In this document: positions 51,623-54,794 of the stretch, in pieces
Numbering within the stretch: position 1 is the first letter of the stretch
Layout of the letters: each line of letters starts with the position of its first letter
Origin: Denitrobaculum tricleocarpae
GTDB lineage: Bacteria > Pseudomonadota > Alphaproteobacteria > Kiloniellales > Kiloniellaceae
Direction of reading: 5' to 3'
Assembly: GCF_007004665.1 (NCBI RefSeq)
Contig: NZ_ML660053.1
Location: 806,001 to 870,000 of the forward strand
Length of the DNA stretch: 64,000 bases
Notes under the pieces: generated by a model
The model's input: only the letters and a program-made list of their open reading frames with translations
Told to the model about the DNA's origin: nothing
The model's database searches: none
Position numbers and translations under genes: made by a program

Positions 51623-52561
51623 TTGGCGACATTGAAACGCGACGAAGAGCAATTGCGGCGCTTCAAACGAATAGTACTCCTGCTGCTCTTCTGTCTTTTC
51701 CTTCAGGCTTGCTCCCCCCTCACGCTCGTTGACGCAACGCTTCCCGAGGATAGCTGGAAGCAATTGGAACCTGTCGACTACGGAGCCGATCCTCGCCAGA
51801 AACTCGACATCTACATTCCGGCAGACGGCGATCCTAAGGCTCTGCTCGTGTTCTTCTACGGCGGGAGCTGGGACAGCGGTGAGAGAGCGGACTATCGCTT
51901 CGTCGCGGCCGCTTTCACCGCTGCCGGTTACGCCGTTGCTATTCCCGACTATCGCCTTTACCCGCAGGTGCGCTATCCCGCATTTCTGGAAGACTCTGCC
52001 GAAGCCTTGGCCGCGCTGGCGGCACATCCCGAACTCGGTGTCCTGGTGCCGGAGCGCACTTTTATCGCCGGGCACTCTGCGGGTGCGTGGATCTCGGTGA
52101 TGTTGGCTTTGGAAACGCGCTGGCTTCGGGCGAGCGGGGTCGATCCCGATGGGCTGGCTGGTGTGGTCGGCATTGCAGGGCCTTATGATTTCGATCCCGC
52201 GCGGTACAGATCAACCCGCCGGACCTTCGGCCATGTCGAACCCGCGTCACTGACACAGCCACTGCACTTCGCACGAAAGGACGCGCCGCCGCTTCTGCTC
52301 TTGCACGGGGCGGAAGATACGACGGTTGAGCCGGTCGACAGCCGGCTCCTCGCGGAGCGGATCCAGGCCATGGGCGGGCGCGCGGACTATCTCTTCTACG
52401 ATGATATCGGCCACCTTCGGATCGTCGGTGCATTGGCGCCCCAGCTGACTTGGATCGCGCCCGTGCAGGCTGACATTCTGAGCTTTATGGAGGCGCGTCT
52501 GGCCGGCGCCGACGGTTTGCCGGTGCGAAAAGACTCAGCGGAGACACGGGCCATGAAATGA
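51623..52561 (+). CDS. Lipoprotein-type alpha/beta hydrolase (carboxylesterase)
   Basis: A 312-residue hydrolase. The TTG start at 51623 has a GAGGAG site eight bases upstream and gives a lipoprotein signal ending LFLQAC. Catalytic features: oxyanion motif FFYGGSWDSG near residue 78 (HG is replaced by YG), nucleophile elbow GHSAG with Ser152, then Asp in LHGAEDTTVEP and His in YDDIGHLRIVGAL. It is close to BD-FAE/acetyl esterase-like enzymes. It is alone between the long gap and the rtcB leader; its substrate is unknown. Confidence 0.87.
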   Translation: MATLKRDEEQLRRFKRIVLLLLFCLFLQACSPLTLVDATLPEDSWKQLEPVDYGADPRQKLDIYIPADGDPKALLVFFYGGSWDSGERADYRFVAAAFTAAGYAVAIPDYRLYPQVRYPAFLEDSAEALAALAAHPELGVLVPERTFIAGHSAGAWISVMLALETRWLRASGVDPDGLAGVVGIAGPYDFDPARYRSTRRTFGHVEPASLTQPLHFARKDAPPLLLLHGAEDTTVEPVDSRLLAERIQAMGGRADYLFYDDIGHLRIVGALAPQLTWIAPVQADILSFMEARLAGADGLPVRKDSAETRAMK

Positions 52562-52751
52562 CAATGACTGTCGCAGTCAGAGCGCACCCGACATCATGAC
52601 GCAGGGGTTCAGGTGAAGGCTCCCTTCTACTGCTCTTACTTCTTTGCTCACTCTCTTTCCGGCGCAGGCTTCAGAAAACAAAATTTGTACCCTGACAAAA
52701 ACCGGCTTGACTTTTTTCGCTGACCTAGGCAACGTCTCGCCTGATAGTTGA

Positions 52752-52780
52752 GTTGCTGTGGCCTCACCGGGTGCAGCAAC
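52752..52780 (+). promoter_or_regulatory. rtcB leader, hairpin 1
   Basis: GTTGCTG (52752-52758) pairs with CAGCAAC (52774-52780). Its loop contains a CGGGT that can alternatively pair with ACCCG (52779-52783). It lies just before the leader frame and could shape access to its start codon. Confidence 0.45.
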
Positions 52781-52800
52781 CCGTAATCTGGACGAGACCG

Positions 52801-52917
52801 ATGACCCCGACCCTATACCAAAGCGTCAATTCCGAAATGCAGTTCGCAGGCAAATGCCTCGTGCACACTGCATGGGATATTGCGCGCCTGCGGGAGGGTG
52901 GGAGAACACTGCGGTAA
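52801..52917 (+). CDS. Putative leader peptide of rtcB (38 codons)
   Basis: A frame of 38 codons from ATG 52801 to TAA 52915-52917, with a weak GGACGAGA site upstream. The peptide (MTPTLYQSVN start) ends in an Arg-rich tail, RLREGGRTLR, four Arg in ten residues, including AGA and CGG codons. The frame runs through hairpin 2 and through the 5' arm of the antiterminator stem and stops inside the following hairpin loop, so its translation would decide which RNA structure forms. It was not predicted from homology; its coding status is inferred from this placement. Confidence 0.45.
   Translation: MTPTLYQSVNSEMQFAGKCLVHTAWDIARLREGGRTLR
52837..52873 (+). promoter_or_regulatory. rtcB leader, hairpin 2
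   Basis: ATGCAGT (52837-52843) pairs with ACTGCAT (52867-52873), enclosing a second stem AGGCA/TGCCT (52848-52859) with a 2-base tip. It lies within the leader frame. Confidence 0.5.
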
Positions 52918-52957
52918 CAGATTAGACGCAGTCTCCGGTTTCGACACACACCCTCCC
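52892..52957 (+). promoter_or_regulatory. rtcB leader, antiterminator stem with inner hairpin
   Basis: GGGAGGGTG (52892-52900) pairs perfectly with CACCCTCCC (52949-52957). Inside, GGAG/CTCC and ACTGCG/CGCAGT (52901-52936) form a further hairpin with loop GTAACAGATTAGA. The 3' arm is the same sequence that forms the 5' arm of the terminator, so both cannot exist together. Confidence 0.6.
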
Positions 52958-52989
52958 AGGCACAGGCTTCGGGAGGGTTTTTTGTTTTT
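52950..52989 (+). terminator. Rho-independent terminator in the rtcB leader
   Basis: ACCCTCCC (52950-52957) pairs with GGGAGGGT (52971-52978), followed by TTTTTGTTTTT. It lies 74 bases before the rtcB start, so rtcB expression from an upstream promoter requires readthrough. Confidence 0.75.
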
Positions 52990-53062
52990 GGGCCGGGCTG
53001 CGTCGTCGGAAAAAAGGCGCGGCCCGGAAGATCCGCCAGGCAGGCGGAAGAGGAGAGAGATC

Positions 53063-54280
53063 ATGAGTGGCTATGAAGTGATTGAGACGGGACGCGCCGT
53101 CGTGAAGATGTGGACCAAGGGTGTGCCGGTCGATGACTCGGCACGCCAGCAGCTCACGAACGTCGCGCGCCTTCCCTTCGTGCATAGCCATGTCGCCGCC
53201 ATGCCGGACGTCCATTTCGGGCGCGGCGCAACGGTCGGCAGCGTGATTGCAACCAAGGGCGCCATCATTCCCGCCGCCGTCGGTGTCGACATCGGCTGCG
53301 GTATGATGGCGGTCCGTACCAGCCTGACGGCCGAGCAACTGCCTGATTCCCTTGCGAAAATTCGTTCGATCATCGAACGGACCGTGCCCCATGGCGGGAC
53401 CGGTAAAAAGGGCGGTTGGAAGGACGAGATCCCCTCGCGGGTGTCCAAACGCTTCGAGCAGACCGGTTTGGGTGAAGGCCTGGAGCGGATCGAGAGCAAG
53501 CATCCGGCCATCGCCGGGGCGAACTCCGTGGTTCACCTGGGATCGCTTGGGGCCGGGAACCATTTCATCGAACTCTGTCTCGATGAAGCGGGCAAGGTCT
53601 GGATCATGTTGCACTCCGGATCGCGGGGCGTGGGCAACCGGATCGGCAGCTACTTCATTCAGGAGGCGCGGAAGTCGATCGAGAAAAAGGTTCTTGGACA
53701 GGCTCTGCCTGACCGTGACCTGGCCTACTTCATCGAGGGCGAAGACGAGCTCTTCGGTGATTACCTGGAAGCGGTTATGTGGGCACAGGATTTCGCCCGT
53801 GTGAACCGGGAGGTGATGATGGAGCGGATCCTGGTTGCGATCCGCCCCTTGCTGCCGCCCTTCACCACGGAGAAGCAGGCCGTGAACTGCCACCACAACT
53901 ACGTGGCGAGCGAGCGGCACTTCGGTGCGGATGTCTGGCTGACGCGGAAGGGGGCTGTTTCGGCCCGCGAAGGACAGTTGGGCATCATTCCGGGATCCAT
54001 GGGTGCGAAGTCCTTCATCGTCCGGGGACGAGGCAACGCGGAGTCCTTTCACTCCTGCAGCCATGGCGCCGGACGGACCATGAGCCGGACGGCGGCCAAG
54101 GCGAAGTTCACCCTTCAGGACCATCGCGATGCGACGGAAGGGGTGGAGTGCCGGAAAGACCGGGGTGTCTTGGATGAGACGCCCAAGGCCTACAAGAACA
54201 TCGACGCAGTGATGGCGGCCCAGGCCGATCTGGTCGATGTGGTTCACACCTTGAAGCAGGTCGTCTGCGTGAAGGGGTGA
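53063..54280 (+). CDS. rtcB: RtcB family RNA ligase
   Basis: A 405-residue GTP-dependent RNA ligase, nearly the length of E. coli RtcB (408). Mn-binding Cys79 (DIGCGMM), His in HLGSLGAGNHFIEL, HSGSRGVGN and NCHHNYV, and the guanylylated His334 in SHGAGRTMSR are all present. It joins 2',3'-cyclic phosphate (or 3'-phosphate) and 5'-OH RNA ends, repairing tRNA or other RNA after toxin cleavage. AGGAGAGAG precedes the ATG. No RtcA cyclase or RtcR activator is adjacent; instead two small genes follow. Control is probably by the structured leader. Confidence 0.95.
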   Translation: MSGYEVIETGRAVVKMWTKGVPVDDSARQQLTNVARLPFVHSHVAAMPDVHFGRGATVGSVIATKGAIIPAAVGVDIGCGMMAVRTSLTAEQLPDSLAKIRSIIERTVPHGGTGKKGGWKDEIPSRVSKRFEQTGLGEGLERIESKHPAIAGANSVVHLGSLGAGNHFIELCLDEAGKVWIMLHSGSRGVGNRIGSYFIQEARKSIEKKVLGQALPDRDLAYFIEGEDELFGDYLEAVMWAQDFARVNREVMMERILVAIRPLLPPFTTEKQAVNCHHNYVASERHFGADVWLTRKGAVSAREGQLGIIPGSMGAKSFIVRGRGNAESFHSCSHGAGRTMSRTAAKAKFTLQDHRDATEGVECRKDRGVLDETPKAYKNIDAVMAAQADLVDVVHTLKQVVCVKG

Positions 54281-54431: not shown

Positions 54432-54794
54432 ATGATGAAATTGTGGCGTCCCGTGGGACGGAACGAACTCGAGAAGATCGAAGCCGCCGGCATGAAAGGC
54501 TTTCCGCCCCGTTTGCCGGAGCAGCCGATTTTCTACCCGGTCCTGAGTTTTGATTACGCCGAAAAGATTGCGCGCGATTGGAACTCGACCTGTCCGGATC
54601 ACGATCATGTCGGTTTCGTGACCGAATTTGAAGTCGATGACGGCTTTGCCGAGTCCTTTGAGGCCAATGAAGCCGGTGGCTCGGCGCACCGCGAGCTTTG
54701 GGTTCCCGCGGAGGAACTCGAGGCTCTGAACAGAAATCTGCTGGGACCGATTGCGGTCGTGGCGGCCTACCACAACGGAGAACGGGTGCGGTAG
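54432..54794 (+). CDS. Small conserved protein of the ADP-ribosylation/crystallin J1-annotated type
   Basis: A 120-residue protein, start ATG 54432 or 54435 after a GGGAGCGG site. The family string LWRPVGRNELEKI...GFPPRLPEQPIFYPVL (first and last pieces seen), YAEKIARDWN, VGFVTEFEVDD and HRELWVPAEELEALN is that of a short protein often named after ADP-ribosylation/crystallin J1 in databases, though it lacks the catalytic domain of those enzymes. It follows rtcB in the same direction, suggesting a role around RNA repair or a generic stress function. No catalytic residues can be named. Confidence 0.75.
   Translation: MMKLWRPVGRNELEKIEAAGMKGFPPRLPEQPIFYPVLSFDYAEKIARDWNSTCPDHDHVGFVTEFEVDDGFAESFEANEAGGSAHRELWVPAEELEALNRNLLGPIAVVAAYHNGERVR

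Follow-up and report, generated by a model that had tools for sequence, protein, structure and literature searches.

Transcription attenuators of the trp type are built from a promoter, a leader reading frame and two mutually exclusive stems, an antiterminator and a terminator. Leader-peptide attenuation is an old principle, and it has a direct precedent in armZ (PA5471), a gene of P. aeruginosa that has been called RtcB-like and is preceded by the leader-peptide attenuator PA5471.1 (PMC12057347, PMC13041342). According to these two papers, complete translation of PA5471.1 leads to the terminator and stalling prevents it, and the inducers of armZ are antibiotics that target the ribosome and the loss of the tRNA CCA enzyme. 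For the RNA ligase operon rtcBA under control of RtcR, the input is reported to be tRNA fragments in Salmonella (PMC7790460) and impaired translation in E. coli (PMC5175333).

The leader described here lies directly upstream of rtcB in Denitrobaculum tricleocarpae, within a window of 64,000 nucleotides (the whole stretch of DNA analysed), to which all coordinates refer. This rtcB is the sole PF01139 match in the genome. Its product falls below the cut-off of TIGR03073 (156.3 versus 271.8 bits) and is not of the release-factor-associated RtcB type, to which ArmZ presumably belongs. The elements of the locus, in 5' to 3' order, are as follows.

52707..52735, + strand: probable promoter, TTGACT and CAACGT with a 17-nt spacer; TTGACT is invariant in 4/4 genomes of the genus
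52752..52780, + strand: hairpin near the predicted transcript start, -16.8 kcal/mol (z -2.3, 4/200 shuffles as good)
52801..52917, + strand: leader reading frame of 38 codons, MTPTLYQSVNSEMQFAGKCLVHTAWDIARLREGGRTLR, stop codon TAA; indel-free and open in 4/4 genomes of the genus
52892..52900, + strand: antiterminator 5' arm GGGAGGGTG, within the last codons of the frame; pairs with 52949-52957 and covaries in other genera
52901..52936, + strand: inner hairpin extending the antiterminator helix; its loop holds the stop codon, and its stem sequence hardly varies within the genus
52949..52957, + strand: shared arm CACCCTCCC, for the antiterminator or the terminator; seen by position check, folding and covariation
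52951..52983, + strand: intrinsic terminator CCCTCCCAGGCACAGGCTTCGGGAGGG followed by TTTTTT, dG -17.9 kcal/mol
53050..53059, + strand: purine-rich rtcB ribosome-binding stretch GAGGAGAGAG, read from the sequence and conserved in the genus
53063..54280, + strand: rtcB, RNA ligase of 405 aa (Pfam RtcB, 418 bits)

A generic consensus scan listed neither the leader promoter nor the leader terminator, the latter probably having been missed because of a bulge in its stem. Just 5' of the -35 box, an inverted repeat TTTGT-N6-ACAAA (52684-52699) is kept in 4/4 genus genomes and could be a candidate repressor or activator site. A CCGGTT..GACAC-like stretch before the shared arm (52935-52948) is common to two genera (also L010-L012) and resembles a tRNA T-loop. 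The gene 3' of rtcB (54432-54794) encodes a 120-aa protein without Pfam or NCBIfam family, and a near-identical sequence is also found after rtcB in L007.

Two segments compete for CACCCTCCC, namely GGGAGGGTG, located in the last codons of the frame, and the terminator segment GGGAGGG (52971-52977), which is followed by the T-run at 52978-52983. When each stretch is folded alone, the energy is -30.6 kcal/mol for the antiterminator (z -3.7) and -21.7 kcal/mol for the terminator (z -3.4); in either case 0/200 shuffles do as well. A search for all three arms as one exact pattern, GGGAGGG-N30-60-CCCTCCC-N6-16-GGGAGGGTTTT, gives a single occurrence in the genome and three matches over 387 alphaproteobacterial genomes: the present leader, the rtcB leader of G325, and one in G328 that looks like low-complexity sequence. 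The reversed pattern has no match in the same 387 genomes. The arms, the T-run and the 38-codon frame had been placed by the initial annotation exactly to the base.

The leader is probably a ribosome-controlled transcription attenuator of rtcB. This was also the central proposal of the initial annotation, and stem covariation, a recurring frame and the promoter-side pattern, all detailed below, back it. RNA polymerase would start at about 52743, as judged from the promoter-like site, with a ribosome following on the 38-codon frame. A ribosome that reaches the stop codon in time would cover the end of the frame and leave the 5' arm unable to pair; with this arm masked, the shared arm would fold into the terminator and transcription would end at about 52983. 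If the ribosome lagged or stalled at an earlier point of the frame, possibly owing to a damaged or uncharged tRNA or to its own damage or inhibition by a drug, the 5' arm would stay free and capture the shared arm once made, no terminator would form and rtcB would be transcribed. Sequence comparison shows the frame, the two exclusive stems with their covariation, the promoter-like site 5' of the frame and the alternation with RtcR detailed below. That the frame is translated, how the ribosome moves, which stress induces rtcB and how large the effect is are predictions from this arrangement, from which we also infer induction of rtcB by translation stress. The frame would then be a meter of translation and not the source of an active peptide.

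A search with the leader recovered it in 4/4 genus genomes, the three others at 80-95% identity, and gave a single match of 46 bases among 37 further relatives. In the genus alignment, conservation sets in abruptly at about 52682, just 5' of the promoter, and the sequences differ upstream of this point. Few or no changes affect the arms, the stop codon and the terminator in the four genomes, and the stem of the 52752-52780 hairpin is, by eye, largely kept via paired changes. The frame shows a pN/pS of 0.48-0.77, and 44/300 column shuffles gave as few non-synonymous changes (not significant); given this weak amino-acid constraint, the leader probably does not act through the peptide itself. A conserved active peptide was rejected on these values and on the differences between peptides of different genera. 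The 5' arm is moreover read in differing reading frames between genera (REG in L010, GRD in L089, GKG in L115).

Examination of other Alphaproteobacteria revealed the same design before many rtcB genes. An RtcB match at E 1e-100 was found in 23/387 sampled alphaproteobacterial genomes, in 15/61 genomes of the same order and in 53/150 genomes of a second order, and 92 distinct alphaproteobacterial upstream regions were read, copies with an identical 300-nt upstream sequence being counted once. A fixed rule, requiring a stem of 6 or more pairs, a dG of -13 or lower and 5 or more T in 9, identifies a terminator before rtcB in 55 of the 92. An ATG frame of 20-60 codons precedes the terminator at 54 of these 55 loci, L119 having a GTG frame instead, and the best-fitting frame in the 54 ends with its stop codon 26-45 nt before the terminator arm. 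Eleven further loci (L112, L113, L133, L134, L141, L152, L154, L158, L160, L161 and L164) have the same design except that the T tail is weaker or the distance greater, as judged by a looser rule or by eye; for L113 this was by eye alone, the looser rule having scored another hairpin best. L140 has a terminator without a frame and was not counted as an attenuator. In L145 the hairpin picked by the rule is not that of the attenuator; the locus was kept among the 55 and left out of the mid-frame pairing and triple tests. The terminator scan found no RtcB motif for L095 and eight distant loci. Neither an attenuator nor RtcR was found for 12/92 regions.

Of the 31 representatives (loci less than 80% alike), 30 have a frame that is placed in the same way with respect to the stems, while dinucleotide shuffles give 4.0 (sd 1.9) and the antisense-strand control 7/31; thresholds and the 80% clustering were picked after first looks at the data, and the statistics take related loci as independent. 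Recurrence of the frame among relatives was one of the checks that the initial annotation had asked for, and its outcome supports the core of the proposal. A simple scan gave no Shine-Dalgarno-like motif for 16/30 frames.

Several loci have additional elements. L026/L093 contain an extra reading frame between the attenuator and rtcB, the terminator ending 254 nt before rtcB. A further CCCCTCCC copy, which could pair with a GGGAGGG-type arm, is present between terminator and rtcB in L089, L090 and L119. In L099 a tRNA gene (positions 1359-1446; Rfam tRNA, 51 bits) lies directly 5' of rtcB, with a strong terminator and perhaps a short frame in front of the tRNA gene; L099 would pass the looser rule and was left out of the counts after the contiguous-complementarity test, its hairpin being 266 nt upstream, before the tRNA gene.

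The alternative pairing is supported by folding as well as by covariation. By contiguous complementarity alone, the best match of the terminator arm to the stretch 5' of it is individually significant at p 0.05 in 10/32 representatives (combined p 3e-7). Folding discriminates better. When a ribosome is set in the middle of the frame, pairing between the shared arm and the final codons has a mean probability of 0.97 versus 0.35 in shuffles, 28/29 leaders lying above 0.9 (combined p 6e-15), and the antiterminator probability exceeds 0.5 in 29/30; with the ribosome at the stop codon it does so in 0/30, a value that is zero by construction. Base triples tabulated in 54 leaders reveal that the shared arm changes together with both of its partners. 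In L115-L117 the change is three-way, CCCTTCCC occurring with GGGAAGGG on both sides, that is T in the shared arm and A on either side. In CCTTTCCGG (L119) and CCTTCCG (L142), one position each has A-U in the antiterminator and keeps G-U in the terminator; these two matter most, as pairing there is better preserved in the antiterminator than in the terminator. Other pair types are found at stem edges across the table. The two exclusive stems with a common arm, first drawn for this one leader, thereby covary between genera, and in the present leader each beats 200 shuffles. Pairing in the 5' arm starts at a base whose median distance to the downstream stop codon is 26 nt (10-90% range 18-33 nt); given the size of the ribosome footprint, the 3' part of the arm at least should be hidden by a ribosome that has reached the stop.

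The attenuator could depend on translation in another manner, responding to the absence of ribosomes and not to their stalling. The frame would then gauge ribosome availability at its start and its C-rich early codons would matter, as reported for a DUF1127 gene of S. meliloti, a bacterium of the same class, which is tetracycline-induced and dependent on its upstream frame (PMC12218461). The present frame likewise has C-rich early codons (ACC CCG ACC), which the full-length fold pairs with the region of the 5' arm. However, control in S. meliloti sits, according to the same study, in the C-rich codons at the frame start, whereas here the conserved and covarying pairing is at the frame end. The predicted untranslated state is also mixed, the antiterminator probability exceeding 0.5 in 13/30 leaders without a ribosome in the model (0.62 for the present leader). 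We therefore regard ribosome absence as a rather unlikely signal, and stalling within the frame as the preferred one.

Codon usage was compared with dinucleotide shuffles as a guide to what a stalled ribosome may report. The most enriched codons are those for Gln (7.5% of codons versus 3.9% expected, z 5.4, in 28/30 peptides), Tyr (z 5.4, inflated by stop-codon avoidance) and Phe (z 3.5), and the most depleted are those for Ser, His and Arg (10.1% versus 13.6% expected, z -3.3 for Arg), all z values being inflated by relatedness. Gln occupies 51/628 positions at 11-35 codons before the stop and 5/300 in the last ten codons, an effect that is only suggestive because the arm dictates what these final codons are. 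The genome has 48 tRNA matches, and most anticodons were found once, including those for Gln (two anticodons), Tyr and Phe, so that tRNA copy number does not discriminate. Single-copy tRNAs were rejected on this ground as a reason for the Gln, Tyr and Phe codons; His, whose anticodon was likewise found once, is depleted in the frames.

A classical amino-acid attenuator for one charged tRNA, Arg or Gln, could draw on the Gln enrichment, on its placement mostly 11-35 codons before the stop, and on the Gln3 and Phe4 codons of PA5471.1, which are reported to mediate armZ induction on loss of the CCA enzyme (PMC13041342). The role of these two residues may form an intriguing parallel to the Gln and Phe enrichment observed here. 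Against such a device stand the lack of a run of one codon in any listed leader frame, the depletion of Arg, a Gln position effect confounded by the arm, z values inflated by related leaders, and the fact that rtcB is not an amino-acid gene, all of which make it improbable. The initial annotation had suggested depletion of Arg tRNAs as the signal, and this suggestion was not upheld: the frames contain less Arg than expected, and the present one has its four Arg codons in or right beside the 5' arm, so that a ribosome stalled there would cover the arm and favour termination.

We read the frame instead as a general meter of translation. A more specific and tentative version, somewhat less likely than its negation, makes it a broad sensor of tRNA damage: sampling many codons and rich in Gln, Tyr and Phe, the frame might stall ribosomes before the arm when tRNAs are broken by nucleases, and so switch on the ligase that mends them. 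If true, the repair loop would be closed through the ribosome and would have evolved as an alternative to RtcR, which, by contrast, reads broken tRNA ends directly.

The sequences around the frame indicate where transcription of rtcB begins. TTGAC occurs upstream of the frame in 16/30 representatives versus 4.3 expected, and the 17-nt spacing is found in several other genera as well, with CATAAC or CATACG. Of the 27 representatives whose terminator ends less than 200 nt before rtcB, none has TTGAC in this gap (2.5 expected); over 30 representatives the gap has a median of 75 nt and a minimum of 29 nt. The upstream excess and the empty gap make a separate rtcB promoter 3' of the terminator unlikely; such a main promoter was the objection that the initial annotation had raised against itself. 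The leader does look like a short transcription unit with a terminator, and might be an ordinary small gene or small RNA next to an independently transcribed rtcB. The second pairing partner of the terminator arm is nevertheless conserved and covarying, the gap shrinks to 29 nt and holds no TTGAC in those 27 representatives, and the peptide sequences differ between genera, which renders this explanation very improbable. A ligand-binding riboswitch or protein-binding leader is the least credible alternative, for competing stems are common to such devices but Rfam has no match in the window at gathering score nor in 52500-53100 at E up to 5, and no core outside the arms is, by eye, conserved between genera.

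An attenuator of this kind would stand in for RtcR control in many Alphaproteobacteria. RtcR (PF06956) has no match in the present genome at E 1e-10. It was sought in 80 of the 87 genomes with rtcB and found in 14/80, with the match 0.25-3.0 kb from an rtcB copy. These RtcR-side copies carry an attenuator in 0/14 cases by the fixed rule and in 0/14 by the looser rule, and the contrast with the other searched loci (0/14 versus 47/68 by the fixed rule) gives a Fisher p of 1e-6, a value made too small by the relatedness of loci. Ten of the 78 non-RtcR loci were left out of the test as unsearched (eight with an attenuator; three of the ten from other records); with them the comparison is 0/14 versus 55/78 (p 5e-7). 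None of the searched rtcB loci has both RtcR alongside and an attenuator. The two genomes with both devices, G325 and G530, have two rtcB copies each, one beside RtcR without an attenuator and the other with an attenuator. This alternation points to the evolution of two unrelated devices for one kind of damage, which the first reads from broken tRNA ends and the second from stalled ribosomes. Many Alphaproteobacteria would, if this is true, tie RNA repair directly to how well their ribosomes move, and the inducing stress would be faltering translation; the question bears on what bacterial RtcB is for and on what switches rtcB on where RtcR is missing.

Between RtcR and rtcB, four loci (L100, L105, L109 and L111) contain tandem tRNA-like elements in which the 3' half comes before the 5' half. 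The L111 element matches the Rfam family YrlA (Y RNA) with 73.6 bits, and the other three have no match at gathering score; from the L111 match, permuted tRNA-like elements beside rtcB are probably of a known kind.

Outside Alphaproteobacteria, 50 rtcB loci were scanned for terminators alone. A strong terminator lies within 60 nt of rtcB in 8/50 (seven Janthinobacterium, one Thiotrichaceae), and two more (L056, L066) have a weak one. The Janthinobacterium loci (L069-L075) carry, 50-52 nt 5' of rtcB, a different leader, with a frame of 11-12 codons of the MFEQAGSKYYH type, a peptide well kept in the seven loci, then several hairpins and a terminator; it is perhaps an independently evolved rtcB attenuator. 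L067, a Thiotrichaceae MAG, combines a frame of ten codons (MRKIQLNSKN) with a terminator that lies 41 nt 5' of rtcB.

The initial annotation had called the arrangement a new control of RNA repair. This may hold for rtcB itself, as none of the top-ranked matches listed from the open-licence literature describes leader-frame attenuation of this gene, and is weakened by the RtcB-like armZ, which is already described as leader-attenuated. PA5471.1/armZ is the closest precedent, sharing by description the logic of leader peptide and terminator; the armZ product is described as an anti-repressor for an efflux pump, unlike the RNA ligase encoded by rtcB. The upstream frame of E. coli topAI is likewise reported as a general sensor of ribosome stalling that responds to several classes of ribosome-targeting antibiotics (PMC12121999), with a toxin-antitoxin target unlike rtcB, and the S. 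meliloti DUF1127 gene offers an alphaproteobacterial upstream frame coupled to termination and induced by tetracycline, although its control resides in C-rich codons at the frame start (PMC12218461). The trp-type attenuators share the layout, and the present leader differs from them in having no run of cognate codons. Finally, RtcR/sigma-54 control of rtcBA in E. coli and Salmonella concerns the same gene and, as reported, a similar input; it employs a protein activator with a CARF domain, where the rtcB gene described here would be governed by a putative RNA switch.
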